Of a stretch of 64,000 bases of DNA, positions 30,592 to 51,844 are shown one piece after another (within the stretch, counting starts at the first letter, position 1; each line of letters opens with the position of its first letter). Location: the NCBI RefSeq assembly GCF_900100715.1, contig NZ_FNCA01000002.1, positions 372,001 to 436,000 on the forward strand. The letters are read 5' to 3'. This DNA comes from Methanolobus vulcani (GTDB lineage: Archaea > Halobacteriota > Methanosarcinia > Methanosarcinales > Methanosarcinaceae). Below the pieces are notes generated by a model. That model was not told the DNA's origin and did not search any database. It worked only from the letters and a program-made list of their open reading frames with translations. Position numbers and translations under genes: made by a program.

Positions 30592-31147
30592 ACAAATATC
30601 TAATATCAAACTTCATTTAATAACTTTGCTGATAACAGGATTCTGATGAGAATATTATTACTAAGTAATTATTTAGTCAATCTACTAGTGTTATTATTCT
30701 TTAGAGTTGCCTTTAAGATAGAATATAATGGTTATAAGGAAATATTGTCACAATATGGCGGATTCTATGTAGAATTCTTATAATTACTTGTTTTAATAAC
30801 GTATGTGTTTTAGAAAGCTGAAAGAAAATCGGGGAATTATTGTAATTATCTTTTTAATGATGCCTGTTGTAATCACTCAACATAGTTAATTTTCTTTATA
30901 TTACTCGCACATTGAAACAAACTTATGTTAATCACTATATTTGGGGTTATACAAAGCCGATTTCGGAAAAATTTATTAGGAATACTTGTAATATAGGCTT
31001 GAGCAGTCTATGATGCTTTTGTAAAGATAAAATAATTTCATGGCTAAAGGATTCATTGATCTGGAGAATCTATTATTGATTTATAATAAAAAGTTTATTT
31101 ATGTGGTGGGATAATTATATTGCCTTTGTTGTACATTGAGGAGTTTT
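30592..31147. other. AT-rich non-coding gap before the nonulosonate block
   Basis: 556 bases lie between divergent genes, with no convincing reading frame or RNA gene. TATA-like stretches lie at about 30967-30977 (AAAATTTATTA) and 31093-31101 (GTTTATTTA). Either could drive the rightward block beginning at 31148. GAGGAG at 31138-31143 is the ribosome site of the first gene. A short palindrome (ATTCTATGTAGAAT) lies at about 30763-30776. Confidence 0.5.
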
Positions 31148-32137
31148 ATGGAACAATTTTATTCTGGTAAACGTATTTTAATAACAGGTGGTGCTGGTAG
31201 TATTGGACAGTCACTAGCTGAAAAAATGTTGGAATTTGACCCTGCTGTTATTAGAATTTATGATGCGAATGAAAATGCTCTTTTTCATATGCGTCAGAAA
31301 TATTCTGATGATACAGGGAAAAAAATGAGGTTCCTTTTAGGTGATATCCGCAATTTCAACAGGTTGCAGTATGCTTTCAAAGACATAGATATAGTTTTCC
31401 ATACTGCTGCTTACAAACATGTTCTCGAGTGTGAATATAATCCTATAGATGCCATTGATGTTAATATCAATGGAACAGCAAATGTAATCCAAGCTGCTAT
31501 TTATCAAGGTGTAAATAAAGTTATTTTTACAAGTTCGGATAAAGCAGCAAACCCTTCTAATACAATGGGCACAACAAAGTTACTTGCAGAGAAATTGATT
31601 ACTGCTGCTAATGACTATGGTGCAAATACTACTATCTTTGCATCCTGCAGATTTGGAAATGTGGTCGGTTCAAGTGGATCAGTAGTACCCTTATTTAAGA
31701 AGCAAATATTAGAAGAAAAAAGAGTTACTATTACAGATTCCCAAATGACACGTTTTATGATTACTCAGGATACTGCTATTGATTTGATGCTTAAAGCCGG
31801 TATGTTTTCAGAAGGCGGTGAAATATTTATCTTTAAAATGCCGTCAATAAATATCAATGATTTGGCTGATGCAATGATTTATAAATTCGGAGAAGCTACT
31901 AAAGAATTTATTGGGCGTAAACCTGGAGAGAAGATGTATGAGGAAATAATGACAGAAGAAGATGCTTCTCGTTCATATGAAGGCGAGGATATGTATGTGA
32001 TTTTACCTCAGATTCGAGAAATTGACTATGATCATAATGAACACTTTACAAAAGTACAATCTATAAAAAGTTCAAGGGATATGGATTTGCTTAGTATGGA
32101 TGAAATTTTTACTTTGCTTGAAGGAGCAGGAATATGA
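31148..32137 (+). CDS. UDP-GlcNAc 4,6-dehydratase (PseB/FlaA1/CapD-like)
   Basis: A 329-aa soluble extended SDR. GGAGSIGQSL binds NAD, and AAYKHV is followed by TSSDKAANPSNTMGTTK. In this family the usual catalytic Tyr is Met (MGTTK) and Asp-Lys in the SSDKAAN loop takes over, as in C5-inverting dehydratases FlaA1/PseB. It would turn UDP-GlcNAc into the 4-keto-6-deoxy-AltNAc intermediate of pseudaminic acid synthesis. ATG 31148 follows GAGGAG; a TTG further up at 31136 overlaps that site. It overlaps the next gene by 4 bases (ATGA) and heads a long operon. Confidence 0.82.
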   Translation: MEQFYSGKRILITGGAGSIGQSLAEKMLEFDPAVIRIYDANENALFHMRQKYSDDTGKKMRFLLGDIRNFNRLQYAFKDIDIVFHTAAYKHVLECEYNPIDAIDVNINGTANVIQAAIYQGVNKVIFTSSDKAANPSNTMGTTKLLAEKLITAANDYGANTTIFASCRFGNVVGSSGSVVPLFKKQILEEKRVTITDSQMTRFMITQDTAIDLMLKAGMFSEGGEIFIFKMPSININDLADAMIYKFGEATKEFIGRKPGEKMYEEIMTEEDASRSYEGEDMYVILPQIREIDYDHNEHFTKVQSIKSSRDMDLLSMDEIFTLLEGAGI

Positions 32138-33066
32138 ATATACTTGTAACTGGTGGTGCTGGTTTTATTGGAAGGTGGGTTGTAAAGAGATTACTGGATG
32201 ATGGGAATGACGTACTGGTTCTTGATGATCTTTCTAATGGACGGGAACAAAATATAAGTGAATTTCAGGTAAATCCCTCGTTTAGTTTTGTAGAAGGTGA
32301 CATTAAAGATTCTGCTCTTATTTCCAAGCTTTTCTCAAACAAATTAGACATATGTATCCATCTTGCAGCAAGTATTATTGTGCAAGATAGTATAGATGAC
32401 CCTCGGAAAACTTTTGAAAATGATGTAATCGGTACCTTCAATGTTCTTGAAGAAGCTAGAAAACATGGAACCAAAATAGTTTTTATGAGTACGTGTATGG
32501 TATATGATCTTGCAAAATCAGATGGTGCAATTGGAGAGAATCATCCTACTAAGCCTGCTTCTCCATATGCAGGTGCTAAACTTGCAGGAGAAAATATGGT
32601 ACAGTCTTACTATCATGCATATGGTTTGCCCACTGTTATTCTCAGACCTTTCAACACATATGGTCCTTTCCAGAAGAGTACTGGTGAAGGTGGGGTCGTT
32701 GCAGTTTTCCTTAAACAGGATATCGAAGGTGAATATCTCAATATCTACGGGGATGGTACACAGACCCGCGACCTCATGTACGTAGAGGATTGTGCTGACT
32801 TTCTCGTGAGAGCAGCATATTCTGATATTGTGAATGGAGAACTGTTGAATGCTGGACTCGGAAAAGATATAACTATCAACGATTTAGCTTCTATAATTTG
32901 CGGTGATTCAAAAAGAATTAAACATGTGGAGCATATTCATCCTCAGAGTGAGATTGCTAAACTTGTTTGCGATAATAGTAAGGCTTACAAGGTTTTGGAA
33001 TGGAAGCCAGAAACTCCTCTTGAAGAAGGTATAGAGAAGACACGTAAATGGCTTAAACAAAATTGA
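32134..33066 (+). CDS. NAD-dependent nucleotide-sugar epimerase/dehydratase
   Basis: A 310-aa extended SDR. It has GGAGFIGRWVVKRL at the N-terminus, AASIIVQDS, STCMVYD (Ser/Thr of the triad), YAGAK (Tyr-x-x-x-Lys), RPFNTYGP and DLMYVEDCADF. It is most like GalE/WbpP-type C4 epimerases or RmlB-type dehydratases, and sequence alone does not decide. Overlap with the preceding PseB-like gene suggests it acts on a nucleotide sugar of the same pathway, perhaps supplying or epimerising a UDP-HexNAc. The next gene follows after 21 bases. Confidence 0.8.
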   Translation: MNILVTGGAGFIGRWVVKRLLDDGNDVLVLDDLSNGREQNISEFQVNPSFSFVEGDIKDSALISKLFSNKLDICIHLAASIIVQDSIDDPRKTFENDVIGTFNVLEEARKHGTKIVFMSTCMVYDLAKSDGAIGENHPTKPASPYAGAKLAGENMVQSYYHAYGLPTVILRPFNTYGPFQKSTGEGGVVAVFLKQDIEGEYLNIYGDGTQTRDLMYVEDCADFLVRAAYSDIVNGELLNAGLGKDITINDLASIICGDSKRIKHVEHIHPQSEIAKLVCDNSKAYKVLEWKPETPLEEGIEKTRKWLKQN

Positions 33067-33087
33067 AGTATGAATGTGGCAATTTAA

Positions 33088-34221
33088 ATGAAGTATATTC
33101 CCTACGGTTTTCAGTGGATTGATGAAAACGATATTCGCGAAGTTATCAGTGTTCTGAAAAGTGACTGGATAACCACCGGTCCCAAAATTCAAGAATTTGA
33201 GGATGCTCTTTGTAGATATACAGGCGCATCACATAGTGTAGCTGTAAATAGTGGTACAAGTGCATTGGATATTTCAGTTCAATCACTGGAGTTACCACCA
33301 AGCTCTGAAGTAATAACAACTCCATTTACATTTGTTGCTACTTCCAATTCTATAATCTATAATGGACTAAAACCTGTTTTTGCAGATATCTGCGAAGATA
33401 CTAGGAATATAGATCCAGATTCCATAAGGAATAAAATAAGTGAAAGGACAAAGGCTATTATATATGTGGATTATGCGGGACAGCCTTGTGATATCAAAGA
33501 GATTAAAGAAATTGCCGAAGATTTTGATTTGTATTTGATTGAGGATGCTTCTCATGCAATTGGTTCGGAGTATGAAAACAAAAAAACAGGCACTTTTGCA
33601 GACATGACGATTTTCAGTTTTCATCCGGTGAAACATATAACAACGGGTGAAGGCGGAGCTGTGTTGACAGACAATGAAGAGCTCCATGAAAAGTTATCAA
33701 TGCTGCGTAGTCACGGCATAGATAAAACCACATCTGAAAGATATGGTCCGGATGCCTCATGGGCTTATGACATGAAGTACCTTGGAAGAAATTATAGAAT
33801 CACAGATTTTCAGGCTGCTCTTGGAATATCTCAACTGGGCAAACTTGATTCCTATCTGGACAAAAGACGTGAAATAGCTGGTATATACAGTGAGCTTTTT
33901 GCAGATGTTCCTGAAATAACCATCCCATCGGTTAGGAAGAACCTGAAACATAGCTGGCATCTTTATACTGTACTTATAGATTCAAGGGTTCACAGGGACG
34001 TTTTTTTTGGGAAAATGAGGGCAAATAATATAGGTGTCAACCTTCATTACATTCCTATTTATAAGTTCTCTTATTATCAGGGAAAATACGGCTCAATTGG
34101 TGAACTCCCTGTTACTGAGGATGTTTTCAAGAGAATAATTACGCTACCTTTATTCCCTCGCATGCAGTACGATGATGTCTTGAAGGTAGTTGAAACCACA
34201 AAAAAATTACTAAGTAAGTAA
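33088..34221 (+). CDS. PLP-dependent 4-amino sugar transaminase (PseC/DegT family)
   Basis: A 377-aa DegT/DnrJ/EryC1 aminotransferase. The N-terminus IPYGFQWIDENDI followed by SDWITTGPKIQEFE is close to PseC-type enzymes. VNSGTSALD binds the cofactor phosphate. IEDASHAIG and FSFHPVKHITTGEGG contain the PLP-binding Lys. It would aminate the 4-keto product of the PseB-like dehydratase using glutamate. Gene order dehydratase, epimerase, aminotransferase, acetyltransferase matches nonulosonate clusters. The start is ATG 33088. Confidence 0.85.
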   Translation: MKYIPYGFQWIDENDIREVISVLKSDWITTGPKIQEFEDALCRYTGASHSVAVNSGTSALDISVQSLELPPSSEVITTPFTFVATSNSIIYNGLKPVFADICEDTRNIDPDSIRNKISERTKAIIYVDYAGQPCDIKEIKEIAEDFDLYLIEDASHAIGSEYENKKTGTFADMTIFSFHPVKHITTGEGGAVLTDNEELHEKLSMLRSHGIDKTTSERYGPDASWAYDMKYLGRNYRITDFQAALGISQLGKLDSYLDKRREIAGIYSELFADVPEITIPSVRKNLKHSWHLYTVLIDSRVHRDVFFGKMRANNIGVNLHYIPIYKFSYYQGKYGSIGELPVTEDVFKRIITLPLFPRMQYDDVLKVVETTKKLLSK

Positions 34222-34230
34222 GGTGAGATG

Positions 34231-34824
34231 ATGTATCGTCCATTTATTGTTGGGATGAATATATATCTGAGAGGTCTGGAGAGATCAGATATTGAAGATC
34301 CGTATTTCCAATGGCTCAATGACAGGGAAGTTACCCAATTTATGGAATCTGGTAATTTTCCTAATACTTTAGAGGATATGGAGTCTTTTTTCCAGAGTAA
34401 TTCCTTGAACAAAGATACTGTGATTTTTGCTATAATAGATTCTCAGACCGATAAACATATAGGAAATGTGAAACTTGGACCGATAAACTGGATATCAAGG
34501 AATTCTCATATGGGAATTATGATAGGAGATAAGGCTTCTTGGGGAAAGGGTTACGGTTACGAGTGTGTGAAGCTGATTGTGGATTATGCATTTAATGTAT
34601 TGAATTTGCACAAAGTAATGCTGGGAGTTGTCGAACAGAACAAGGCGGCTTTAAAACTTTATCAAAAGGTGGGTTTTACAATTGAAGGTATATGTAAAGA
34701 GCAGTTTAATCTGGATGGCAAGTACTGTGATGTTCTTTATATGGGACTGTTGAAAAGGGATTATTTAACTACTAATGGAAGCATTTGCTTTGATCCAGAT
34801 GGAATAGATTTCTATGTGGATTAG
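34231..34824 (+). CDS. GNAT N-acetyltransferase (PseH-like)
   Basis: A 197-aa GNAT protein that would acetylate the 4-amino group made by the PseC-like enzyme. The opening NIYLRGLERSDIEDPYFQWLND and the acetyl-CoA loop KASWGKGYGYECVKL, followed by LHKVMLGVVEQNKAALKLYQKVGF, are characteristic of the RimJ/PseH branch. Two ATGs stand in tandem at 34228 and 34231. AGGTGA at 34221-34226 is better spaced for the second. It lies 9 bases after the aminotransferase. A 167-base gap follows. Confidence 0.82.
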   Translation: MYRPFIVGMNIYLRGLERSDIEDPYFQWLNDREVTQFMESGNFPNTLEDMESFFQSNSLNKDTVIFAIIDSQTDKHIGNVKLGPINWISRNSHMGIMIGDKASWGKGYGYECVKLIVDYAFNVLNLHKVMLGVVEQNKAALKLYQKVGFTIEGICKEQFNLDGKYCDVLYMGLLKRDYLTTNGSICFDPDGIDFYVD

Positions 34825-34991
34825 ATTGATTCATTCCAAATGTAAACTTTTGAAAATGTTATCTATAATAATGATGAATAATTTAACTAGGTATATAGAT
34901 ATTCTCATAGATTATTCTGTACCTTGTAAAATAGCAACTAATGTACCTATAGATTTTTCAGTAAATAGGAATATTTTTAAGATGGATTAGA

Positions 34992-35957
34992 ATGGCGGTA
35001 TATCAAGAAAGCAACATTTTGGTAACAAGTGTATCAAAAAAAATTCCACTCATCAGGTCTCTTCGAAAAGCAAGCCTAATGTTTGGAAATAAAGTAAAAA
35101 TATTCGGTGCAGACAGCAACAATAATTGTATTGGAAAGTACTTTGTGGATGAGTTTTGGAACATGCCTTTACTTGATCAAATGAATATCGAATATCTAAT
35201 AGACTATTGCAAAAATCATGGCATTTCATACATTGTCCCCAGTCGTGACGGTGAATTGCTTTATTTTTCTAAATTCAAAAGCAAGCTAAAACACCATAAC
35301 ATTCATGTTATGGTGTCAGATTATGATACAATCAAAACCTGTTTGGACAAATTGACATTTTCTGAAAGACTTTATGCCAATGGTTTCCCTGTAGTAATGA
35401 CTGTAGAAGACATAGGATGTTTAGAGAGCGATTATTATGTTGTGAAAGAAAGGTTTGGAGCAGGATCGCGGAGCATAGGCTTAAAGTTAAGTAGAAAAGA
35501 ATCTATTGAGCACGCAGAGCAACTTAAAAATCCTATTTATCAACCATTTATTTTCGGGAAAGAATATAGTGTTGACTTGTATGTAGATAAAACTAGTAAA
35601 ACAAAAGGCATTGTTGTCCGCGAAAGAGAACTTGTCGTAAATGGTGAGTCTCAAATTACGGTGACTCTTAGGAATGACAAGTTAGAGAAGTTATGCGGTA
35701 AACTTGCTGAAAGTATTGGTATTTGTGGACATGCAGTTTTACAGGTTTTAATTGATGATTATGGAATGTTTCATATAGTAGAGTGTAACAGCCGTTTTGG
35801 TGGAGCTTCATCGCTAAGTTTTGAAGTGGGCTTACATAGTTTTTATTGGTTTTTGTTGGAGTCTGTTGGTAAAAATATAAATGATTATCCTTTTATTCGG
35901 TCAAAGAGGGAAAAAAGACAGGTGCGTTATGCGGAAGACATGTTCATCAGTGAATAA
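34992..35957 (+). CDS. ATP-grasp ligase in the nonulosonate block
   Basis: A 321-aa carboxylate-amine ligase-like protein. The N-terminal preATP-grasp domain resembles carbamoyl-phosphate-synthase-like enzymes (NILVTSVSKKIPLIRSL). The ATP-grasp part includes VVKERFGAGSRSIGLKL and the metal-binding end MFHIVECNSRFGGASS. It would join a carboxylate to an amine through an acyl phosphate. ATP-grasp genes of this type occur with HAD and SpsF genes in pseudaminate-like clusters, but the substrate is not established. It may add an amino acid or amide to the nonulosonate. The gap upstream contains no obvious ribosome site. Confidence 0.75.
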   Translation: MAVYQESNILVTSVSKKIPLIRSLRKASLMFGNKVKIFGADSNNNCIGKYFVDEFWNMPLLDQMNIEYLIDYCKNHGISYIVPSRDGELLYFSKFKSKLKHHNIHVMVSDYDTIKTCLDKLTFSERLYANGFPVVMTVEDIGCLESDYYVVKERFGAGSRSIGLKLSRKESIEHAEQLKNPIYQPFIFGKEYSVDLYVDKTSKTKGIVVRERELVVNGESQITVTLRNDKLEKLCGKLAESIGICGHAVLQVLIDDYGMFHIVECNSRFGGASSLSFEVGLHSFYWFLLESVGKNINDYPFIRSKREKRQVRYAEDMFISE

Positions 35958-35985
35958 ATAAGAAACTCAAAAAGGAGATATATAT

Positions 35986-36885
35986 ATGGCAGAAGATTCT
36001 TACAAAGTTATAAAAGATTCTATATTTCAACATAAACATTTAGATCCTGTTCCTAGGAATGAGGAACTTACCGATTTCTATCAAAGTAAATATTTTGACT
36101 TAATCCGCAAGGGGGGACGTGCTCCTGAAATTCGCCGTTTAATGGCTGGAGGTGAAACGGCGGAACAAGAAAGGAACTGGTTAAGAAATACGCTTTATTC
36201 TGATATTAGTTATGTGCTTGGTCAGAATTCCTTAGGCAACCGAGTTCTGGATATTGGATGTGGAACCGGGGATCTTGTGGCATTTTTGAAAGAAAATGGA
36301 TATGATGCACATGGTATTGAACCTTCTTCAGATGCAGTTGAGATTGCATTATCCAATGACCTTTGTGTTTACAACTCTACGCTGGAAGATTACGTAGCAA
36401 AGTTCTCTCAATCAAGTGAAAGGTATGATGCGGTAACTCTTATGAACGTTCTTGAGCATGTTCCTGATCCATCAAACATTATGGAATGTGTGAAAAAAAT
36501 ATTAAAACCAGATGGAATTATTTGTGTTAGAGTTCCCAACGATTATAATGGATTGCAATTAGCTGCCCAAAAAAAATTAAATAAGGAACCTTGGTGGATA
36601 GCAGTTCCTGATCATATTAATTACTTTGATTTTAAATCACTGCGTAATTTTTTTGAACATATGGGATTCGAGGTTTTTTATGAACAGAGTGATTTCCCTA
36701 TGGAATTGTTTTTGTTAATGGGTGATGATTACGTAAACGATCCTGAGCTAGGTTCAGTTTGTCACAAAAAAAGAGTATCTTTTGAAACAGCAGTTCCCCG
36801 CGAACTGAGGCGTCAGATGTATCGTTCGATGGCAGATTTAGGATTGGGCCGCTGCTGTTTAACCTTTGGTAGGAAATCAGTATGA
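35986..36885 (+). CDS. Class I SAM-dependent methyltransferase
   Basis: A 299-aa protein with a central Rossmann core. Motif I is VLDIGCGTGDLVAFL, the acidic residue is in HGIEPSSDAVE, and MNVLEHVPDP and RVPNDYNG follow. It belongs to the UbiG/Methyltransf_12-like group frequent in glycan loci, where it methylates a sugar hydroxyl or terminates a chain. GGAGATAT precedes the ATG at 35986. It overlaps the HAD gene by 4 bases, so the two are translationally coupled. The target is not known. Confidence 0.8.
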   Translation: MAEDSYKVIKDSIFQHKHLDPVPRNEELTDFYQSKYFDLIRKGGRAPEIRRLMAGGETAEQERNWLRNTLYSDISYVLGQNSLGNRVLDIGCGTGDLVAFLKENGYDAHGIEPSSDAVEIALSNDLCVYNSTLEDYVAKFSQSSERYDAVTLMNVLEHVPDPSNIMECVKKILKPDGIICVRVPNDYNGLQLAAQKKLNKEPWWIAVPDHINYFDFKSLRNFFEHMGFEVFYEQSDFPMELFLLMGDDYVNDPELGSVCHKKRVSFETAVPRELRRQMYRSMADLGLGRCCLTFGRKSV

Positions 36886-37589
36886 AAGCAGTGCTGTTTG
36901 ACTTAGATAATACATTGTATCCCGAAATAGATTTTGTAATAAGTGGTTTCAAGGTAATTTCAGAATATATTGCAGACCAATACGATTTAGACCAAAGCAG
37001 TTTGCTACAAAGGATGTTGACAATACTAGATAGAGATGGGAGAGGTAAAATCTTTGATACTTTACTTCAGGAGTTGAATTTGCAAAATGAAATAAATGTA
37101 GAGTTGCTAGTCTATCTGTATCGCTCTCATATTCCTGCGATTCATCTGGATGAAGATGTTTTATTAACATTCGAATATTTTAAAAACAAAGGAATCGCGT
37201 TAGGAGTTATTACTGATGGTGAGGTTTTAGTTCAAAGAAACAAAATATTTGCCTTGGGGTTAGAGAGTATGTTTGATGTGATTATATATACAGATTTATT
37301 AGGAAGAAACTATTGGAAGCCATCCACAGTTCCTTTTGACATAGCTCTTGATATTCTACAAGTTTCTTATAATGATGCAACATACGTTGGTGATGATATT
37401 AGTAAAGACTTCAGGGGTCCTAATTACTTGGGTATGACTACTATCCAAATCACAAGAAATGAGAAAATAGGTTTTCCAGAAATTTTAACAAATAGCTCTT
37501 ATTCAACAGCTCATACAAAACCCAAATTCATAGTTGACAAGCTTGGCGAAATTATATCAATTGGAGGAAAATATGATGATTATAAATAA
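36882..37589 (+). CDS. HAD-superfamily phosphatase
   Basis: A 235-aa HAD hydrolase. Motif I FDLDNTLYPE holds the nucleophile and acid/base Asp. Motif II is VITDG, motif III Lys lies near RNYWKPS, and motif IV is YVGDDISKDFRG. It may remove phosphate from a sugar or nonulosonate-9-phosphate. It lies between the methyltransferase and the PseI-like synthase. Its 3' end overlaps the first 17 bases of the synthase, whose ribosome site lies within this gene. Confidence 0.82.
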   Translation: MKAVLFDLDNTLYPEIDFVISGFKVISEYIADQYDLDQSSLLQRMLTILDRDGRGKIFDTLLQELNLQNEINVELLVYLYRSHIPAIHLDEDVLLTFEYFKNKGIALGVITDGEVLVQRNKIFALGLESMFDVIIYTDLLGRNYWKPSTVPFDIALDILQVSYNDATYVGDDISKDFRGPNYLGMTTIQITRNEKIGFPEILTNSSYSTAHTKPKFIVDKLGEIISIGGKYDDYK

Positions 37590-38616
37590 TAGACCAATCG
37601 GTCTAGGTTACCCTACGTATATGATTGCCGAAATATCTGCAAATCATCATCATAATTTTGAAGAAACCGTTAAAACTATCAAACAGGCCAAGCTCGCCGG
37701 GGCAGATGCGATCAAATTACAAACTTATACTGCTGACACTATAACAATCAAAAAAGACACCGCTCCATTTAGGCACAGTTCGGGATCTCTTTGGGAAGGC
37801 CGCACACTTTATGACCTTTACACTGAAGCTTATATGCCTTGGGAATGGCAACCTAAACTTAAAGAAATTGTTGAAAAACTTGGAATGGACTTCTTCTCAA
37901 GTGCTTTTGATCCGACAGCTGTGGATTTCCTTGAAGAGCTAGGGGTTCCAGTACACAAAATAGCATCTTTCGAGATAGTGGATATCCCTTTGATAGAAAA
38001 AATGGCCCGTACAGGAAAACCGTTGATTATTTCAACGGGGATGGCAACTATTGGAGAAATAGAAGAGGCTGTAACTGCTGCAAAAAAAGCAGGAGCAACT
38101 CAGATTGCTCTTCTCAAGTGTACGAGTGCCTATCCAGCTTCTGCAGAGGATATGAACTTACGTACAATTCCACATCTGATAGATACTTTTGGGTTACCGG
38201 TCGGGTTATCAGATCATACATTGGGTGTTGTGTCATCTATAACATCAGTGGCTCTTGGTGCTTGTATTGTTGAGAAACATTTCACTCGTTCACGATCGGT
38301 TCCAGGGCCCGATAGTGCTTTTTCAATAGAGCCTCATGAATTTAAGGAGATGGTTGAGGCTATTCGTATCACAGAAAAAGCCTTAGGAAAAATTCATTAT
38401 GGTCCAACAGGAGATGAAAATAAAAGCAAAATATTTAGACGTTCACTTTTTGTTGTCAAAGATATCAAGGCTGGTGAGAAATTTACAAATGATAACATCC
38501 GTTCAATTCGTCCGGGAAATGGTCTTCACCCTAAATATCTAGGAGGAGTGTTGGGTCGTATTGCAACACAAGATATCGCTTCTGGAACGCCTTTAGAATG
38601 GACACATGTCGGATGA
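37573..38616 (+). CDS. Pseudaminic acid synthase-like enzyme (PseI/NeuB family)
   Basis: A 347-aa PEP-dependent condensing enzyme, TIM barrel plus C-terminal SAF (antifreeze-like) domain (from about residue 285: RRSLFVVKDIKAGEKFT). Diagnostic are MIAEISANHHHNFEETV, DAIKLQTYTADT and SLWEGRTLYDLYTEAYMPWEW. The last is a PseI rather than sialic acid synthase feature. It would condense PEP with a 2,4-diacetamido-trideoxyhexose to give the nine-carbon acid. ATG 37573 has GGAGG 6-10 bases upstream; the longer frame from 37534 is rejected. Confidence 0.88.
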   Translation: MMIINNRPIGLGYPTYMIAEISANHHHNFEETVKTIKQAKLAGADAIKLQTYTADTITIKKDTAPFRHSSGSLWEGRTLYDLYTEAYMPWEWQPKLKEIVEKLGMDFFSSAFDPTAVDFLEELGVPVHKIASFEIVDIPLIEKMARTGKPLIISTGMATIGEIEEAVTAAKKAGATQIALLKCTSAYPASAEDMNLRTIPHLIDTFGLPVGLSDHTLGVVSSITSVALGACIVEKHFTRSRSVPGPDSAFSIEPHEFKEMVEAIRITEKALGKIHYGPTGDENKSKIFRRSLFVVKDIKAGEKFTNDNIRSIRPGNGLHPKYLGGVLGRIATQDIASGTPLEWTHVG

Positions 38617-38755: not shown

Positions 38756-39757
38756 ATGTTAGGTTTGGTTATAGGCTGTGGTTCAATAGGAAAACGACAC
38801 ATTTCTAATCTGATAAAATTAAAAAACTGTCAGGTTATTGCTTATGATATTAGTGAAAACCAGCGATTGCAAGTAGAGGATAAATTTAAGATCACAGTTT
38901 TTGATAATTTATGTGATGCTTTTGAACAAAAACCTATGTTTGCGGTTATCTGTAGTCCTACATACCTGCACATAGAACATGCCATTCTTGCAGCACAGAA
39001 TGGATGTCATCTTTTTATTGAAAAACCTCTCTCAAATTTAATGACTGGTATGAATACGTTGTTTGAAGATGTTTCTAGCCAAAAATTGATAACATTTATT
39101 GGTTGTAACATGAGATTTCATCCGGGTCCTTCTAAAGTTAAGGAAATAATTTCTTCAGGTAAGATTGGCAAGATTCTCTATGCACGGATTGAAACCTCTT
39201 CTTACCTTCCTGGCTGGCGACCAGAGCAGGATTATAAAAAATCTTACTCTGCTAATGAACAGCAGGGAGGTGGTTGTGTCTTGGATAGCATACATGAACT
39301 AGATCTTGCTTGCTGGTACTTGGGTGATGTAAAATCAGTTTTCAGTGTAACCCGAAATCTTGGGTTTCTGGGGATTGATGCTGAGGAAATATCAGAAATA
39401 ATCTCTGATTTTTATTCTGGTACGATTGCCAGCATACATCTTGATTATGTTTCTCAAAATTATGTAAGGAGGAATCATATTATTGGTGAATATGGTTCTA
39501 TTTTTTGGGATTTTAATTGCGTTACCGTTGATGTATATCTAGCTTCAACCAATGAATGGGAAGTCCATAAACTACCTGAAAATTATGATCTTAATGAGAT
39601 GTACATTGATGAAATGCGTTACTTCATATCATGTATTACTGATAAAACCGACTCATTTAACGATATTGGATTTGCTTTGAAAACTTTAAGGTACGCTCTT
39701 GCTGTAAAGGAATCGTCTGAATTAAAGTGTATGGTAACTTTGGAGGAAATTGAATGA
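38756..39757 (+). CDS. Gfo/Idh/MocA-family oxidoreductase
   Basis: A 333-aa NAD(P)-dependent sugar dehydrogenase. The Rossmann opening is GLVIGCGSIGKRHISNL, the conserved lysine motif is IEKPLSN, and the C-terminal alpha/beta domain contains GGGCVLDSIHELDL. It oxidises or reduces a sugar ring carbon. Here it overlaps the SpsF-like gene by 4 bases and sits inside the nonulosonate block, suggesting a modified nonulosonate or precursor as substrate. A second Gfo/Idh protein with a different likely role lies at 56709. Confidence 0.82.
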   Translation: MLGLVIGCGSIGKRHISNLIKLKNCQVIAYDISENQRLQVEDKFKITVFDNLCDAFEQKPMFAVICSPTYLHIEHAILAAQNGCHLFIEKPLSNLMTGMNTLFEDVSSQKLITFIGCNMRFHPGPSKVKEIISSGKIGKILYARIETSSYLPGWRPEQDYKKSYSANEQQGGGCVLDSIHELDLACWYLGDVKSVFSVTRNLGFLGIDAEEISEIISDFYSGTIASIHLDYVSQNYVRRNHIIGEYGSIFWDFNCVTVDVYLASTNEWEVHKLPENYDLNEMYIDEMRYFISCITDKTDSFNDIGFALKTLRYALAVKESSELKCMVTLEEIE

Positions 39758-40509
39758 TAATAGGCATTGTCCAAGCACGTATGGGGTCTACAAGATTTCC
39801 GGGTAAAGTGTTGAGGTATATTGATGACAAGACTCTTTTACAACATATGATTGAGCGAATTCAAAGATCAAAATTAATTGATAAGTTCGTGATAGCTACT
39901 TCAGTTGAAGCGGAAAATTCATTGATAGAGGACTTCTGCAATAAAGTAGGAGTTTCATGCTTTAGGGGAAGTGAAAATGATGTCTTAGATAGATATTATA
40001 AGTGTGTAAAATCTTTAGATCCTCTTCCTGATATCATTGTAAGAATGACAGCGGATTGTCCCTTGAGTGACCCCAATGTTATTGATTTTGTTGTGAGGGA
40101 ACTAATTGATAAAAAAGTGGATTATGTGACTAACTCGTTTGAGCCTCTATTTGAAGATGGTTTCGATGTAGAAGCTTTTACTTTTGAGGCACTTGAAGTA
40201 GCATGGAAGAATTCAACACTAAGATCAGAAAGGGAACATGTTACTCCGTATATGAAGAAATCATCTGCAATTAATAAAATTTACAAAAAGTATTCTCATG
40301 ATTACATCTATAAATTGTCTGTTGACACACCGAATGATTTCAAACTAATACAGAATATATTTTCTCAATTGTACTCTCCTGAAAAAATATTTACTATGAT
40401 GGATGTTGTAAATCTCTTAAAGTCTTACCCAGAAATGCTAGATATAAACAGTGAAAGTGTAATCAATGAAGGCTACAAGAAATCACTGTCAATGGATAAA
40501 ACAGATTAA
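39754..40509 (+). CDS. SpsF-like cytidylyltransferase (candidate CMP-nonulosonate synthetase)
   Basis: A 251-aa nucleotidyltransferase of the KdsB/NeuA fold. It has the P-loop-like start IVQARMGSTRFPGKVL, the FRGSENDVLDRYYK loop, MTADCPLSDP with the metal-binding Asp, and a later DVEAF. SpsF/PseF-type enzymes activate nonulosonic acids with CTP. In this block it is the only candidate for activating the PseI product, the other cytidylyltransferase being KdsB at 48646. It overlaps the upstream oxidoreductase (ATGA). Confidence 0.82.
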   Translation: MIIGIVQARMGSTRFPGKVLRYIDDKTLLQHMIERIQRSKLIDKFVIATSVEAENSLIEDFCNKVGVSCFRGSENDVLDRYYKCVKSLDPLPDIIVRMTADCPLSDPNVIDFVVRELIDKKVDYVTNSFEPLFEDGFDVEAFTFEALEVAWKNSTLRSEREHVTPYMKKSSAINKIYKKYSHDYIYKLSVDTPNDFKLIQNIFSQLYSPEKIFTMMDVVNLLKSYPEMLDINSESVINEGYKKSLSMDKTD

Positions 40510-42818: not shown

Positions 42819-44702
42819 ATGAAAAATGATGAGAAAAAAGTCGTATTTTTTGAAAACATAAATATATCTTTCTACAAAACCTGTGTGTCATATCTAAACA
42901 ATGGGTATATAGTATACTTTTTTAAAATAGATAATTCTTTTCTCACTAAATCGCCTATTAGAAATAACTTGGATAACAGGAAATTAATAAATATTTCAGA
43001 ATTATCTTTTGATTATTCTCTATTTACTAAAGCAGCATTTTTTTCTCACAAGAATCTGGACTCAGTTTTTGAAAGATATTTGACATCGCCGTTAATAAGG
43101 TACGTTTCTAACCTTTATGATTCTTCTAAAGTTGTGGATGTTTATAGAAAAGAACTGATGGGAGTTTTGAACACAGTTTATACAATGGAACTAAAAATCA
43201 ATGCAATAATTGAAAATTCAGTGGAAGTTGTGATCTTCTGTCCTGTTAACAACTATTGTTTACATTCAAGTGAGTTTTCTTTACTATCTGGAAAGGTTCA
43301 TGTAAAAGCATTCAATAATCGGAGTGTCTTATTAACAAGATTGCAAAGCAAAATGAAAAATATAGTCCTTTTGTTTTATCCATTTTACATATTGTTTAAT
43401 AAAGTAAAACCTCTCCCTTCAAAGAAAAAAGATGTAAAAGAAATTAGGATTGGGCTTAATGCAAATCTTCCTGGCTTTTTTGGGTTCAATCATCATTATA
43501 TTGGTTATATAATTGATGAGATTTATGGATTACCAAAAAGTGAAGTACTGTTTATTGATGAGACTTTTGAAGCACAAAATTCCGTTGATTTTAGAAAATA
43601 TGGCTACATGCACACAGATTTCAGGAATAAAAGAGAACGTATAAGCAAAACCTTTGCATCTAAAATAATTTCTGAATTCATTCCTGTTTGGTTATTTTGT
43701 TTAAGGAGGGCATATAAAGAAGAAGATTTTATTATTAAATCAACTAGAATTATTTTAGTAGATTATATTAAGTGGAACATGTTTCTGGATTCCTATTCTA
43801 TTGAAAAACATATTACGGTACTTCTTCCAGATAATATTTCCAAAACTCTCCTTTTGGAAAAAAAAGGTGTTAAGACATTTTACATATATCCAGATAACTA
43901 TGCAGGTGATTATCATATAGCTCAGGATGACTCTCTCCCAAATTCTGTTTTTTATATATTCATGCATGTAAATCATGCAATAATTTTCGGAAATAAGGTT
44001 GAGAGATTTTTTAATGTTAATCGTAATTCTATTAACCATTACCACAAAGTAGGCGTGCTTGCATCTCAGAAAGTAAGGGAATTGAAAGAAGGATTAATTG
44101 ACTCGGATTTATTTCCAATAAATAAAAAGAAAGAGTTGCCAGAGAAAATAGTTGCTGTATTTGATACTTCTTTTGTAGACTATGGCCCGTTAAAAGTGAA
44201 GGATGGAATCAAATTTGGTGAAGATATTTTGTATCTGTTGCAAGATTTTCCTGAAATTGGTGTAATTTTCAAAGAAAAAAAATTCCTTTCTGAAACTCCT
44301 GAACTTGCCCCTATTTATGAACAACTTGAAAAACACGAACGTTGTTACGTTGTCAGAAAGAGCAAAGAAGAAATCCATTTTAGCTATGAAGTCATTGCCT
44401 CTGCGGACCTTGTAATCTCGGCTGCTTACACTTCTACGACCGCTGAAGCCCTTGCCTCAAGGACCAAGGCTGTATATTATGATGTAGCAGGTACTGATAT
44501 TGACGAGAAATATTATTTCAACTCTTTTCCTAATCTAGTAGCTCATAATTATAGTGATCTTAAAAGACTGGTGAACTATTGGCTGTATGAAGTTGATATC
44601 AAACAGTTCAATAACTTTTTAGAAACATATGTGAAGGGGGAAATTGATCCTTACCTTGACTGTAAAGCTATTGACAGATTGCATCAAATACTTAAAAATT
44701 AA
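42819..44702 (+). CDS. Large GT-B-like surface glycan transferase, candidate CMP-sugar user
   Basis: A 627-aa protein that I cannot place in a named family with certainty. It looks like two Rossmann-type halves. The C-terminal half has KIVAVFDTSFVDYGPL, VIFKEKKF and SADLVISAAYTSTTAEAL (Thr/Ser residues 538-541), then KAVYYDVAGTDID. A Ser/Thr pair after a hydrophobic strand in that place is typical of sialyl- and Kdo-transferase-like GT-B enzymes and CDP-glycerol transferases. It has no clear membrane anchor. ATG 42819 follows TTGGGGATT. It neighbours both CMP-sugar pathways. Confidence 0.6.
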   Translation: MKNDEKKVVFFENINISFYKTCVSYLNNGYIVYFFKIDNSFLTKSPIRNNLDNRKLINISELSFDYSLFTKAAFFSHKNLDSVFERYLTSPLIRYVSNLYDSSKVVDVYRKELMGVLNTVYTMELKINAIIENSVEVVIFCPVNNYCLHSSEFSLLSGKVHVKAFNNRSVLLTRLQSKMKNIVLLFYPFYILFNKVKPLPSKKKDVKEIRIGLNANLPGFFGFNHHYIGYIIDEIYGLPKSEVLFIDETFEAQNSVDFRKYGYMHTDFRNKRERISKTFASKIISEFIPVWLFCLRRAYKEEDFIIKSTRIILVDYIKWNMFLDSYSIEKHITVLLPDNISKTLLLEKKGVKTFYIYPDNYAGDYHIAQDDSLPNSVFYIFMHVNHAIIFGNKVERFFNVNRNSINHYHKVGVLASQKVRELKEGLIDSDLFPINKKKELPEKIVAVFDTSFVDYGPLKVKDGIKFGEDILYLLQDFPEIGVIFKEKKFLSETPELAPIYEQLEKHERCYVVRKSKEEIHFSYEVIASADLVISAAYTSTTAEALASRTKAVYYDVAGTDIDEKYYFNSFPNLVAHNYSDLKRLVNYWLYEVDIKQFNNFLETYVKGEIDPYLDCKAIDRLHQILKN

Positions 44703-44712
44703 AGGAATGAAC

Positions 44713-46539
44713 ATGGGTCTAACTGTTTTAACAGATAAAAGTGTTCTGAAACAATTGAAGTTTAAAAGAACCAGTAATAAATTTATTTATGTAGGGAAGC
44801 AGGATAAAGAAATCTTAAAATTACTTGAAGAGGCAGGGTATATTCAGTTTTTTGTTGATTATTTTGAAAATGAAGAATCCAAGGAAAGATTTGTTCAATC
44901 CTATCTTGATTTAATAGGGTCACTAGGTTCAAAATATTATTCTCTTTGCTGGTGGTCTACTTTTACTTCGTCAAAAAACAAATTTGCTTCAACTCTTTTT
45001 CAAGAACTTCTTCTTTTGCACTCGGTATCAAGATGTCTTGATAATGCTGATGATGATTTATTGTTGATTAATCCCCCAACTTCTGTTCTGCAGTCACTAA
45101 TAAAATATTGTCAGCTGAATTATATTAGTTTTAAAATCATAGATGCTGATGCTTTTTCAATGCCATACAAAATAAAAAACTTCTTTGTTGATTTTATTAT
45201 GAAAATATTCCTGATTTTTAAAACATGGTATCGAATAATTCTGGCAAAATGGTATTTTAGAAACTCAGGAATATATGATCGTAATTCCATAAAGGAATAT
45301 TATGTTCTTAGATCATGGTTTTATGAAAGGTCAATAAATAACAATCATACCTACAAAGATTCTTTTTTTGGAGTTCTTCCTTCTTATCTTTCACAGAAAA
45401 AAGAACTTTTAATAATTGCAGGGATTATAGGAGATTATCGTGCAACACTCTATAAAATTAAAAAGAATAAAGAATTTTTAATTTTACCACAGGAATATTT
45501 TGCAGATTTTCTCGATCCTGTTCGATCTATTGTTAATGTGATAATTAATAAAGTATACATAAAAAGTGTCGATTTTATGGGTATTGAAGTATCAGATTTG
45601 ATAAATTTCCATCTTAGAGAGGATTATATCTATACTGCGGCAGAGGAATGTTTGCAGAAATACTATATTGAAGGTTTAGTCAATAAATTTAAAATAAATA
45701 CTTTTACGACAACCTTTGAAAATAATCCATGGGAAAAAGTTTGTTTCATGACTCTTAAGCAGAAAAGTCCAAAAACTAAACTAATTGGATATCAACATGC
45801 GGTATTATCTCCTTCATCTTTAAATATGTTTGTAAGCAGTCATGAAAAAAAATTCATTCCATTACCTGATAGAATTATAACTACTGGTAGGGTTACCAAA
45901 GATATGCTTGAAAAATATGGTCAATATGATCCTGATATTTTGAAAGAAGGTTGTGCTCTGAGGTTTGAATATCTTTATAGTATTGCTAAAAAAGAGCGTA
46001 AGGTTAATCACACTATACTTGTCACACCGGAAGGTGTTTTGGCTGAATGTGTCAATCTTTTTAATTTCATATATGAATCTTTAAAAGACTGCAACAAAAT
46101 TGATGTCATTTTCAGATCTCATCCTGCTCTTCCATTTGAATCTTTCCAAAAGTATCTTCTATTTGATGTCAACGATTTTCCTCATTTCCATCTTTCAATA
46201 AATGATTCTTTAAAAGATGATCTCTTTTTAGCTGATATTCTCGTTTACAGAGGAAGTTCAACATCAATTGAAGCTTTGAAGACTGGACTCCCTATAATTT
46301 ATGTATCAACAAATGAATTATTAAGTGTTGATCCTCTTTTTGAGTGTGAGTTTTTAAAATGGAAAGTAATAACAAATAATGAATTTGTTTGCGCTTTGAA
46401 GGAAATTTACAATTTGGATGAAGACACTTATAATTTACAATGGAAACTAGCTAACCTTTATCTTAATAAATATATATCTCCTATTACAAATGATAAAATG
46501 AATACTTTCTTCTTTGAGGAAAAGGATGAAAATGAATAA
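44713..46539 (+). CDS. Large GT-B-like surface glycan transferase with HP and SST motifs
   Basis: A 608-aa protein of the same general type as its neighbour. Its second half has LVTPEGVLAE, FRSHPALPFE (His470-Pro471) and VYRGSSTSIEALKTGLPII (Ser515-Ser516-Thr517). The HP and S-S/T motifs are the shared CMP-binding signatures of bacterial sialyltransferase-like GT-B families, also seen in Kdo transferases. This makes it the best candidate here for transferring a nonulosonate or Kdo residue. ATG 44713 is six bases after AAAGGA; an in-frame start inside the preceding gene is less likely. Its end overlaps the next gene by 14 bases. Confidence 0.62.
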   Translation: MGLTVLTDKSVLKQLKFKRTSNKFIYVGKQDKEILKLLEEAGYIQFFVDYFENEESKERFVQSYLDLIGSLGSKYYSLCWWSTFTSSKNKFASTLFQELLLLHSVSRCLDNADDDLLLINPPTSVLQSLIKYCQLNYISFKIIDADAFSMPYKIKNFFVDFIMKIFLIFKTWYRIILAKWYFRNSGIYDRNSIKEYYVLRSWFYERSINNNHTYKDSFFGVLPSYLSQKKELLIIAGIIGDYRATLYKIKKNKEFLILPQEYFADFLDPVRSIVNVIINKVYIKSVDFMGIEVSDLINFHLREDYIYTAAEECLQKYYIEGLVNKFKINTFTTTFENNPWEKVCFMTLKQKSPKTKLIGYQHAVLSPSSLNMFVSSHEKKFIPLPDRIITTGRVTKDMLEKYGQYDPDILKEGCALRFEYLYSIAKKERKVNHTILVTPEGVLAECVNLFNFIYESLKDCNKIDVIFRSHPALPFESFQKYLLFDVNDFPHFHLSINDSLKDDLFLADILVYRGSSTSIEALKTGLPIIYVSTNELLSVDPLFECEFLKWKVITNNEFVCALKEIYNLDEDTYNLQWKLANLYLNKYISPITNDKMNTFFFEEKDENE

Positions 46540-48645: not shown

Positions 48646-49377
48646 ATGAAGGTTGTATGCGTAATTCCTGCAAGATATGATTCGTCTAGATTTCCTGGTA
48701 AACCACTTGTAGAGCTATGCGGAAAAGTGATGATACAAAGAGTTTACGAACAGATCAAAAAAGCAAAGATGATTGATAAATCCTATATTGCTACAGACGA
48801 CATGCGTATTGCAAAATGTGCTCGGAGTTTCGGAGCAGACGTCATAATGACATCTTCTTGCCATGAATGTGGCACAGATAGAATTATGGAGGCTGTTCAG
48901 AATATTGATTGTGATATAGTACTTAACGTGCAGGGTGATGAACCTCTGGTTGATCCGCAGGCTCTTGATATTTTGATTGATACGATAGTTACTGACTCTA
49001 AAGTTTATATGGCTACAATGGTAAGTCCAATTGAAGACGAAAAAGACTATAATGATCCAAATGTAGTAAAAGTTGTAAAGGATTTAAACAACTATGCTCT
49101 TTACTTTTCACGGGCAGGTATTCCCTTTTCAAGGGGAGGTGTAATTTCTCATGTTTTCAAGCAAGCAGGCATTTATATTTATAGAAAAGACTTTCTAATA
49201 AGATTCGCGTCTTTAGGAACCACTTTATATGAGAATATTGAAAAACTTGAACAGCTAAGAGCCCTTGAGAATGGTTACAAAATTAAAGTCGTTGAAACAT
49301 CTTATAGTTCAGTTTCAGTTGATACTCCTGAAGATGCGGATCGTGTAAGAAATATTATCTGCCGAATGTCTAAATAA
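48646..49377 (+). CDS. kdsB: 3-deoxy-manno-octulosonate cytidylyltransferase (CMP-Kdo synthetase)
   Basis: A 243-aa CMP-Kdo synthetase, the last activation step. The opening VCVIPARYDSSRFPGKPLVE is the CTP-binding loop. YIATDD, HECGTDRIMEAV, NVQGDEPLVDP (metal Asp) and SRAGIPF are KdsB hallmarks. The length equals bacterial KdsB. It joins CTP and Kdo to give CMP-Kdo and pyrophosphate. With kdsA, kdsD and kdsC directly downstream it completes the pathway. Kdo is not a known common archaeal sugar, so the product could also be a related 8-carbon acid. Confidence 0.9.
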   Translation: MKVVCVIPARYDSSRFPGKPLVELCGKVMIQRVYEQIKKAKMIDKSYIATDDMRIAKCARSFGADVIMTSSCHECGTDRIMEAVQNIDCDIVLNVQGDEPLVDPQALDILIDTIVTDSKVYMATMVSPIEDEKDYNDPNVVKVVKDLNNYALYFSRAGIPFSRGGVISHVFKQAGIYIYRKDFLIRFASLGTTLYENIEKLEQLRALENGYKIKVVETSYSSVSVDTPEDADRVRNIICRMSK

Positions 49378-49442
49378 TCCTTATACTTAATCTTATATCA
49401 TATAACAAAATATATAGAATGCATTTGCTACAAGTGATGGGA

Positions 49443-50276
49443 ATGATTGATACACAACAAAAGAGCGTCAGAATAGGGAATATTGTATTCAATAATAATA
49501 ATCCTTTTATATTGATTGGTGGTCCATGTGTTATAGAAAGTGAGGAACATACTTTTTATATGGCAAGGGAAATTTCAAAAATAACTAACGAGTTAAACAT
49601 ACCATTTATTTTTAAATGTTCTTTTGACAAGGCCAATAGGTCCTCAGTAGATTCATTCAGGGGTCCTGGGATAGATGAAGGGCTACGTATTCTTAAAAAA
49701 GTCAAAACAGAGTTAAATATTCCTGTAATATCAGATGTTCATACTGAAGAACAAATTCCAAAGGCTGTTGAGGTACTAGATATTGTTCAGGTTCCAGCTT
49801 TTTTGTGTCGTCAGACCGATCTTCTTGTGAATATTGCAAAATATAATGTGGTTGTCAACGTAAAAAAAGGCCAATTTCTAGCTCCTTGGGACATGCAAAG
49901 CGTCATAGGAAAAATAGAATCACAGGGCAATCATAATATTCTGCTTACAGAACGGGGTGTAACTTTTGGATATAATAATTTAGTTTCTGATATGCGTTCA
50001 CTAGTAGTTATGAAAGAGACAGGTTATCCTGTTGTATATGATGGGACGCATAGTGTACAGTTGCCAGGTGGGCTTGGTTGTGCATCTGGTGGACAAAGTG
50101 AGTTTATACCTCATCTTTGTAGAGCTGCTGTAGCAGTAGGAGTTTCTTCCGTTTTTTTGGAAATACATAACAATCCAACTGAAGCAAAATGTGATGGTCC
50201 TAACGTCTTAAATCTTAAAAATCTCAAAGAACTATTAAAACAATTAAAGATGATTGATTCTGTTGTAAAAAATTAG
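49443..50276 (+). CDS. kdsA: 3-deoxy-8-phosphooctulonate synthase (Kdo-8-P synthase)
   Basis: A 277-aa DAHP-synthase-fold enzyme condensing PEP with arabinose-5-phosphate. Motifs are ILIGGPCVIESEEH, FKCSFDKANRSS, SFRGPG, DVHTEEQ, QVPAFLCRQTDLL, NVKKGQFLAPWDM and YDGTHSVQLPGG. The Cys in GGPC marks the metal-dependent class II form, where class I enzymes such as E. coli KdsA have Asn. All expected contact residues appear present. ATG 49443 follows GTGATGGGA; an in-frame ATG at 49419 is possible. It ends 9 bases before kdsD. Confidence 0.93.
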   Translation: MIDTQQKSVRIGNIVFNNNNPFILIGGPCVIESEEHTFYMAREISKITNELNIPFIFKCSFDKANRSSVDSFRGPGIDEGLRILKKVKTELNIPVISDVHTEEQIPKAVEVLDIVQVPAFLCRQTDLLVNIAKYNVVVNVKKGQFLAPWDMQSVIGKIESQGNHNILLTERGVTFGYNNLVSDMRSLVVMKETGYPVVYDGTHSVQLPGGLGCASGGQSEFIPHLCRAAVAVGVSSVFLEIHNNPTEAKCDGPNVLNLKNLKELLKQLKMIDSVVKN

Positions 50277-50285
50277 GAGATGTCT

Positions 50286-51248
50286 ATGGATTATATAGAA
50301 GAAGGTGCAAAAGTCCTTAACCAAGAAGCTAAAGGGCTGTTTGAAGTTGCAGATAAACTAAACGGCAATTTTGAAGAAGCAATAAATACGTTATCAGCTT
50401 GTGAAGGTCGAGTTATAATTACAGGTATTGGAAAATCTGGAATAATCGGCAGAAAGATTGCTTCTACTCTCGCAAGTACTGGGACTCCTGCCTTTTTTCT
50501 GCATCCATCTGAAGCTTCCCATGGTGACATGGGAATGGTAACTAACAAGGACATTGTAATACTTATCTCTAACAGTGGTGAAACTGGTGAGATTCTACAC
50601 CTTTTACCAAGCATGAAATCACTCGGAGTAACAACGATTTCAATGTGTGGTAAAAAGGAATCGACTTTATTTCGTGAATGTGATATCTCCTTGAACATAG
50701 GTGTTTCAAGTGAGGCAGATCCTAATAACCTTGCTCCGACAACAAGCACAACCGCAGCCTTGGCAATGGGGGATGCTCTTGCAATAGTTCTCCTGAAACT
50801 CAAAAAATTTCAGCCAACGGATTTTGCTAAACTTCATCCTGGTGGTTCTCTTGGGAGGAAACTGACTGTACGTGTAAGTCATTTAATGCACAAAGGCGAT
50901 AGTATACCTACAGTAAGAAAAGATGCTACAATCAAGGAAGTTATCTTAGTTTTTACAAAAAGTGGTCTTGGGGTCGCGGCTGTGGTTGATGAAAAGGATG
51001 CTTTGATTGGAGTGTTTACGGATGGTGACTTGCGAAGACTCATTGATGTAGAAACTGATTTTATAAACATCAAAATTGGTGATGTCATGAAGAGCAATCC
51101 TAAAGTGATTTCTCCTGATGAGCTCGCATTTGACGCACTAAGAATGATGAATGACTATCAAATTACGGCATTAATGGTCACTGAACAGGATAGTACCTTG
51201 GTAGGCATCCTTAATATTCACGATATACTTAAAGCAGGCATCTCATAG
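50286..51248 (+). CDS. kdsD: Arabinose-5-phosphate isomerase, SIS plus two CBS domains
   Basis: A 320-aa enzyme that turns ribulose-5-phosphate into arabinose-5-phosphate, the committed precursor of Kdo. The SIS domain (about 35-190) has TGIGKSGIIGRKIAST, HPSEASHGDMGM and ISNSGETGEI. A KLHPGGSLG linker leads to two CBS repeats (VSHLMHKGD..., IGDVMKSNP...) in the last 120 residues, exactly the KdsD/GutQ layout. AGGAG at 50275-50279 is best spaced for ATG 50286; ATG 50280 is immediately adjacent. kdsC follows after 8 bases. Confidence 0.92.
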   Translation: MDYIEEGAKVLNQEAKGLFEVADKLNGNFEEAINTLSACEGRVIITGIGKSGIIGRKIASTLASTGTPAFFLHPSEASHGDMGMVTNKDIVILISNSGETGEILHLLPSMKSLGVTTISMCGKKESTLFRECDISLNIGVSSEADPNNLAPTTSTTAALAMGDALAIVLLKLKKFQPTDFAKLHPGGSLGRKLTVRVSHLMHKGDSIPTVRKDATIKEVILVFTKSGLGVAAVVDEKDALIGVFTDGDLRRLIDVETDFINIKIGDVMKSNPKVISPDELAFDALRMMNDYQITALMVTEQDSTLVGILNIHDILKAGIS

Positions 51249-51256
51249 GTATGATC

Positions 51257-51844
51257 ATGTCAGAAATTCAAAACTTGGAACGTGAAGGTATAAGTGCTAT
51301 TCTTATGGATGTCGACGGTGTACTTACAAATGGTACAGTTATTCTTGGCAACAACAATGCTGAATTCAAGGAATTTAATGTAAGGGATGGAATGGCAATA
51401 TCAATTGCAAGAAGATGTGGCATAAAGATTGGTTTTATAACTAGTCGTCAGAGCGAAGCTGTTGAGTTAAGGGGCAAAGAATTGAATATTGATTATCTGT
51501 TTCAGGATGCAAAATCCAAACTTGCTGTCGTTGAGCAAATTAGCTCTTCTGAGAGTATTCCTCTCAACAAAATGTGTTATATTGGAGATGATGTAGTCGA
51601 CGTACCCGTATTGAAAAAAGTCGGTTTTCCTGCTACTGTTAAGGATGCACCAGAGGAAATAAAGTCCTATGTATCATACGTGTCTGCTTTCAATGGTGGG
51701 GAAGGTGCTGTCAGAGATATAATCAAATATATTCTCTCAGAAGGTAACAGATGGCAGTCTACTATAGAATTAGTGATAAAAGAATTGGAAGCTGATGCGC
51801 AATCTGCTTCTGAATTAAAGTTGATCGGTGAACTGAAACAATGA
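51257..51844 (+). CDS. kdsC: Kdo-8-phosphate phosphatase (HAD superfamily)
   Basis: A 195-aa C0-type HAD phosphatase without a cap, as KdsC. Motif I is MDVDGVLTNG (Asp18 nucleophile, Asp20), followed by EFNVRDGMAI, motif II ITSRQSE, the KdsC-typical QDAKSKLAVVEQI with motif III Lys, and motif IV YIGDDVVDVPVL. It removes phosphate from Kdo-8-phosphate. ATG 51257 has AGGT six bases upstream; ATG 51251 is too close. Its last bases overlap the radical SAM gene (ATGA), suggesting coupled translation. Confidence 0.9.
   Translation: MSEIQNLEREGISAILMDVDGVLTNGTVILGNNNAEFKEFNVRDGMAISIARRCGIKIGFITSRQSEAVELRGKELNIDYLFQDAKSKLAVVEQISSSESIPLNKMCYIGDDVVDVPVLKKVGFPATVKDAPEEIKSYVSYVSAFNGGEGAVRDIIKYILSEGNRWQSTIELVIKELEADAQSASELKLIGELKQ

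Follow-up and report, generated by a model that had tools for sequence, protein, structure and literature searches.

The sugar acid 3-deoxy-D-manno-octulosonic acid (Kdo) is familiar mainly from Gram-negative bacteria, algae and plants, and no report of Kdo in archaea was found in the literature searched. Nonulosonates (NulO) are known in a few archaea, and as of 2018, the enzyme that transfers legionaminic acid was still unidentified in all organisms that use this sugar for protein glycosylation (PMC6137143). The retaining Kdo transferases KpsC (GT107), WbbB (GT99) and KrkA (GT140) contain a (K/R)xHP motif followed by a Ser pair; in KrkA, the His of HP and the following Ser pair bind the phosphate of cytidine monophosphate (CMP), and the motif is common to sialyltransferase and Kdo transferase families (PMC12887879). 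An HP pair is reported also in GtfS and TFUB4_00887 of Tannerella forsythia, transferases of pseudaminic (Pse) and legionaminic (Leg) acid derivatives that reportedly transfer the fully modified NulO in an O-glycan cluster (PMC6388019). Here we describe two neighboring genes, P1 and P2, in a 64,000-nucleotide stretch of Methanolobus vulcani (contig NZ_FNCA01000002.1, positions 372,001 to 436,000; hereafter, the window), within what looks like a surface-glycan island. To judge from their sequence relatives and gene neighborhoods, the two proteins are probably related enzymes that attach acidic sugars, one of them pseudaminic-acid-like and the other Kdo, to surface glycans, and the locus offers two concrete candidates for the transfer of CMP-activated sugar acids in an archaeon.

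P1 and P2 are remote homologs that belong to one superfamily. The hhalign comparison of the P1 family with the P2 family scored 96.1% over 345 columns, and the comparison with a group of glycosyltransferases of the GT-B fold (BFO_1060/TIGR04396-type) scored 96.7% for P1 and 98.6% for P2, with at most 6.5% for the unrelated families that served as negative controls. The profile of this group matches the PDB structures of TarL, TagF-like Cps3D and uridine diphosphate (UDP)-N-acetylglucosamine 2-epimerases, and a combined profile of the P2 family and its relatives retrieves TarL (1e-7) and KpsC (0.0016) from among the solved structures. Profile comparison through intermediates thus supports the assignment of both proteins to the GT-B superfamily, in agreement with an earlier note on this DNA, which had described them as GT-B-like. 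No significant Pfam match was detected for either protein, and profiles of five sequences found no PDB relatives.

The same note considered neither protein placeable in a named family, which is correct for P2 and not for P1. P1 is a member of NCBIfam TIGR04417 (polysaccharide biosynthesis PFTS motif protein; 126.6 bits, cut-off 100) and shares the T-S pair of its PFTS motif; the match spans the C-terminal 330 residues, the N-terminal 255 residues lie outside of it, and no assigned function was found for this family. P2 is a relative of TIGR04326 (O_ant_LIC13510, surface carbohydrate biosynthesis) rather than a member, with 57.1 bits against a cut-off of 250 (1.1e-15 over residues 311-564). It is also found by a profile of the archaeal members of the NF046086 BFO_1060 family and the TIGR04396 glycosyltransferases (1.9e-6), many of which are encoded beside NeuB and which have the HP and S-T blocks in common with P2; the score of P2 is below the cut-offs of the curated NF046086 and TIGR04396 models. 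A link between BFO_1060 and the Tannerella NulO transferases was sought and not found.

Relatives gathered from whole genomes comprise 17 P2 loci and 11 P1 sequences, some of them partial, from nine genomes. The earlier note had pointed to His470-Pro471 in P2, followed 45 residues later by Ser-Ser-Thr (515-517), and to a related T-S-T-T block in P1; the coordinates, starts and residues are correct for both proteins, and T538-S-T-T of P1 is indeed present and aligns with the P2 block (P1 YTSTTAEAL over P2 SSTSIEAL). In the same alignment, P1 I-F-K-E-K-K stands over P2 I-F-R-S-H-P. The presence of these motifs by itself was rejected as evidence, since HP followed after 30-60 residues by three S/T occurs in 1.2% of P2 shuffles and a loose form ([KR]xHP, 35-55 residues, two S/T) is found in an aminotransferase encoded in the same window. 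It is their conservation across relatives that raises the motifs above chance (Table 1). The H and P of the HP motif do not vary in a broader set of 23 either, P385 and R417 are likewise invariant in the 17 P2 members, and [KR]xK487, R508 and T538-S539 are all kept in 9/9 P1 relatives.

P2 resembles the retaining Kdo transferases in having (K/R)xHP and a later Ser pair, and matches KpsC weakly over the HP-to-S region, but differs from them in lacking both PF05159 and the QxxxD nucleophile motif: the P2 segment tested is Q361-H-A-V-L365, in which Q361 is not conserved and there is no Asp at +4. Because QxxxD is missing, P2 was rejected as a retaining enzyme of the KpsC/WbbB type. P1 lacks the (K/R)xHP motif of the GT99, GT107 and GT140 enzymes. 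The PF04413 domain of GT30 (WaaA) has no match in P1 or P2 (E<=1) or anywhere in the genome, the PF05159 Capsule_synth domain (GT107) has none in P1, P2 or the rest of the genome, and, as far as Pfam holds the sialyltransferase families GT38, GT42, GT52, GT80, GT97 and GT100, none of these matches P1 or P2 at E<=1. On the features tested, neither P1 nor P2 is a member of GT30, GT99 or GT107, three families raised in the earlier note, nor of GT140. Of the sialyltransferase-type motif set (HP and S-S/T together with a D/E-D/E-G base motif), P2 has HP and S-S/T, and it has the invariant E336 but no strict D/E-D/E-G; P1 lacks HP. GtfS and TFUB4_00887, likened here by description, share HP with P2 but are bacterial proteins of ~445 amino acids.

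P1 and P2 are located between two CMP-sugar pathways, as the earlier note stated. These are a PseC/PseI-type NulO cluster and a cytidylyltransferase upstream, and KdsB-KdsA-KdsD-KdsC downstream. The scores of the Kds set exceed the cut-offs of all four families (TIGR00466, 212 bits > 155; TIGR01362, 393 > 314; TIGR01670, 153 > 107; TIGR00393, 328 > 204). Among the NulO genes, PseI (474 bits > 340) and PseC (456 > 423.5) pass, and PseB (306 < 408) does not. No match to PseG was found in the whole genome, so that the exact NulO product is uncertain, hence the label ‘pseudaminate-type'.

The gene neighborhoods of the relatives differ between the two families. PseB is present in the locus in 9/9 P1 genomes compared with 1/10 P2-only loci (p=1e-4; here and below, the p-values correct neither for phylogeny, since each genome counts as independent, nor for the tendency of surface-glycan genes to cluster in general). 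NeuB is located within 25 kb of P1 in 8/9 P1 genomes, the exception being G472, in which the contig breaks off inside the P1 gene and has no NeuB match. In four genomes (G143, G472, G009, G261), P1 is immediately next to PseB or to an epimerase-PseB pair. The genome G143 holds the closest relatives of both proteins, with P1 1 kb from PseB and P2 (41% for this closest relative) in an operon-like block, 1 kb from a KdsB-clade gene.

For P2, a KdsB-class gene lies within 20 kb in 7/12 genomes with a strong P2 match, compared with 4/164 other genomes (p=2.6e-7), and NeuB is found genome-wide in 10/12 versus 80/393 genomes (p=3.5e-6). These counts are limited to the 12 strong-P2 genomes; the NeuB count over all 23 P2 matches (21/23) was set aside because PseG, NeuC and BFO_1060-type proteins are among the weak matches. 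In a tree of 29 cytidylyltransferases, the KdsB clade (11 rows, support 95/98), the PseF-like enzymes and the type encoded at 39754 are separate, and KdsB-clade genes occur at 10/17 P2 loci, that of the closest relative included. Conversely, of the 11 KdsB-clade genes in the tree, 10 belong to P2 loci, a figure that overstates the link because P1, P2 and related genes served to select the regions; the genome-wide counts are fairer.

These observations suggest a scheme in which P1 and P2 would be cytosolic GT-B glycosyltransferases that have diverged within one superfamily and act in a surface-glycan island; no membrane segments are predicted in either protein. In P2, the CMP moiety of the donor would be held by R468-x-H470-P471 and the S515-S-T block in a C-terminal Rossmann domain, and the enzyme would move the ulosonic acid activated by the neighboring KdsB (CMP-Kdo) onto a glycan acceptor; from the invariance of E336 and its distance to HP, we infer that this residue could perhaps be the general base. 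P1, with K485-x-K487 in the place of (K/R)xHP and its own TSTT block, would move the pseudaminate-type nonulosonate activated by the 39754 cytidylyltransferase. We consider it likely that P2 uses some CMP-ulosonate. For P1, the chances that the donor is a CMP-NulO appear evenly balanced, and an even chance is also what we would give to the full pairing suggested by the flanking pathways, with P1 as the CMP-nonulosonate user and P2 as the CMP-Kdo user, which is the most likely of the readings considered. The earlier note had proposed that one of the proteins uses CMP-nonulosonate and the other CMP-Kdo; the conserved CMP-type motif of P2 and the P1-PseB and P2-KdsB neighborhoods speak for this proposal, and the lack of HP in P1 speaks against it. 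The absence from the genome of both GT30 and a PF05159 Kdo transferase argues for a Kdo role of P2. More support exists for P2 as a CMP-ulosonate transferase that uses Kdo in this genome than for Kdo transfer as the function of the P2 family as a whole. A further reading, namely, that the archaeon makes Kdo and attaches it to surface glycans by a GT-B enzyme, P2, outside the known CAZy Kdo families, beside a sister NulO transferase, P1, with Lys for the CMP-binding His, is tentative and more doubtful than the pairing itself.

Several results weigh against this assignment of donors. P1 contains no HP pair, with Lys where the His is expected, so that its use of a cytidine nucleotide is suggested by neighborhood and homology only. 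The profile of P2 alone reaches KpsC only at E=0.12 and retrieves nothing significant from the PDB, and the AlphaFold2 models, built without a usable alignment, have mean predicted local distance difference test (pLDDT) values of 32.4 and 33.9, which makes them uninformative either way on the GT-B fold. There is no KdsB-clade gene at 7/17 P2 loci, most of which have NulO synthetases instead. KdsA is present in only 1/12 strong-P2 genomes (p=0.17), which is not significant as a P2 linkage, and five other archaeal KdsA regions contain no strong P2 match. Given the P2 loci with NulO synthetases, the donor of P2 may vary or be a NulO, and in the corresponding alternative, P2 or both proteins would use a CMP-nonulosonate, with Kdo transferred by something else. 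The excess of NeuB in the strong-P2 genomes fits this possibility, as does the position of the wider, BFO_1060-type superfamily, whose members are encoded in many archaea no more than a few kb from NeuB; however, G367 has P2 and a KdsB-clade gene with no NeuB match in the genome, and the closest relative of P2 shares its operon-like block with a KdsB-clade gene. Altogether, such an exchange or sharing of donors appears rather unlikely.

The Lys in place of the phosphate-binding His, K487, together with the link to PseB, the most constant neighbor of P1 and its direct neighbor, in some cases, makes a UDP-sugar donor possible for P1. In that case, P1 would be a GT-B enzyme that transfers a deoxyamino sugar from the UDP-linked form made by PseB and the adjacent epimerase, with P2 as the CMP-sugar user. 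Against this stand the proximity of NeuB in nearly all P1 genomes and the long alignment with P2, in whose relatives the cytidine-nucleotide motif is present, and we regard this alternative as unlikely, slightly more so than the exchange of donors. Finally, the HP/S-S pattern, on which the CMP-ulosonate assignment of P2 draws, is found also in enzymes that use cytidine diphosphate (CDP)-ribitol, such as TarL, which is the top hit of the wider profile among solved structures, and P2 could be conceived of as a TarL/TagF-like alditol phosphate transferase using CDP-glycerol or CDP-ribitol. Nevertheless, PF04464 gives no match to P2, no gene for CDP-glycerol or CDP-ribitol synthesis is among the annotated genes of the cluster, and two CMP-ulosonate synthetases flank it, all of which renders this option highly improbable.

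Table 1. Coordinates in the window of P1, P2, their motifs and the flanking pathway genes
Feature	Coordinates	Strand	Remarks
NulO (pseudaminic-type) genes	31136..38616	+	PseB-like, epimerase, PseC, PseH-like GNAT, ATP-grasp, methyltransferase, HAD, PseI/NeuB
PF02348 cytidylyltransferase	39754..40509	+	NulO side, not PseF; clade apart from KdsB and PseF-like enzymes
P1, 627 amino acids	42819..44702 (ATG 42819, stop 44702)	+	TIGR04417 (PFTS motif) protein; candidate CMP-nonulosonate (pseudaminate-type) transferase, remote GT-B
P1 K485-E486-K487-K488	44271..44282	+	At the (K/R)xHP position of P2; K487 kept in 9/9 relatives
P1 T538-S-T-T541, ‘PFTS' block	44430..44441	+	T538-S539 kept in 9/9 relatives
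P2, 608 amino acids	44713..46539 (ATG 44713, stop 46539)	+	GT-B-like, distant to TIGR04326; candidate CMP-Kdo/CMP-ulosonate transferase
P2 E336	45718..45720	+	Invariant, 17/17; 134 residues before H470; candidate general base
P2 R468-S-H470-P471, (K/R)xHP	46114..46125	+	Motif kept in 17/17 P2-family members
P2 S515-S-T-S518, S-S/T block	46255..46266	+	S515 45 residues after H470
KdsB, KdsA, KdsD, KdsC	48646..51844	+	Complete CMP-Kdo pathway, each above the curated family cut-off

P1 and P2 are spaced by 10 bp, and the 3' end of P2 overlaps the next frame, which encodes a methyltransferase, by ~14 bp. The upstream side of the island further holds Gfo/Idh and class-III aminotransferase genes; the region 31136-41863, with these two genes, an ATP-grasp protein and a methyltransferase and without PseG, probably makes a modified NulO via a non-standard route. 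GT4 and GT2 types account for the remaining transferases of the cluster.

A scan of genome contigs with the concatenated alignment (two P1 patterns only) yielded one locus, in Methanolobus psychrotolerans, whereas viral contigs scanned with both proteins and both alignments, and plasmids searched with P2 by tblastn, yielded no match. In M. psychrotolerans YSF-03 (G009), the P2 homolog is split over the end of contig C61 and the start of contig C84 (L002, L005); the two contigs share an identical overlapping stretch and therefore probably adjoin, and the island that they carry includes P1, P2, two NeuB and three cytidylyltransferases.

KdsA is rare, being detected in 6/393 genomes sampled in this phylum, and none was found at P2 loci other than that of the window; M. 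psychrotolerans, for instance, has no KdsA match. In the other KdsA regions, polysaccharide pyruvyl transferase-like proteins (G153 and G201), a GT61-like protein (G246) and, ~0.5 kb from KdsA, a BFO_1060-type KxHP protein that is a distant cousin of P2 (G336) are encoded; G201 and G246 have compact KdsD-KdsA-KdsB sets next to an ABC transporter (L097/L098, L100/L101). The KdsB-clade genes at the other P2 loci may have a different ulosonic acid as substrate, one example being an operon that also encodes an HpcH/HpaI aldolase, a HAD phosphatase and an HMGL-like protein. In several other methanogen-group genomes, the P2 family is found beside KdsB-type activating enzymes with no KdsA at the locus, and these archaea may make an undescribed compound of this class. 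A conserved block without KdsA next to P2 (L084:8062-14720 in G458, L065:2505-7594 in G119, and L068 in G367) encodes an HMGL-like protein, an LdpA-type Fe-S protein, a HAD protein, an HpcH/HpaI aldolase, the KdsB-clade enzyme and a B12-radical SAM protein, and may be responsible for both the synthesis and the activation of such an acid.

In many archaea, GT-B-type proteins of 500-650 amino acids with KxHP and S-T blocks (BFO_1060/TIGR04396-like and others) are encoded a few kb from NeuB (L105, L106, L107, L108, L109, L110, L019:7641-9572) and are further candidate NulO transferases. The window also holds AglB, archaellum genes and a multi-spanning membrane protein of 442 amino acids (60234-61562) that has no Pfam or NCBIfam match and is possibly the polymerase or ligase of the island. 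The secretion ATPase encoded at 13344-16862, an archaellum-type T2SSE protein, carries an intein splicing domain.

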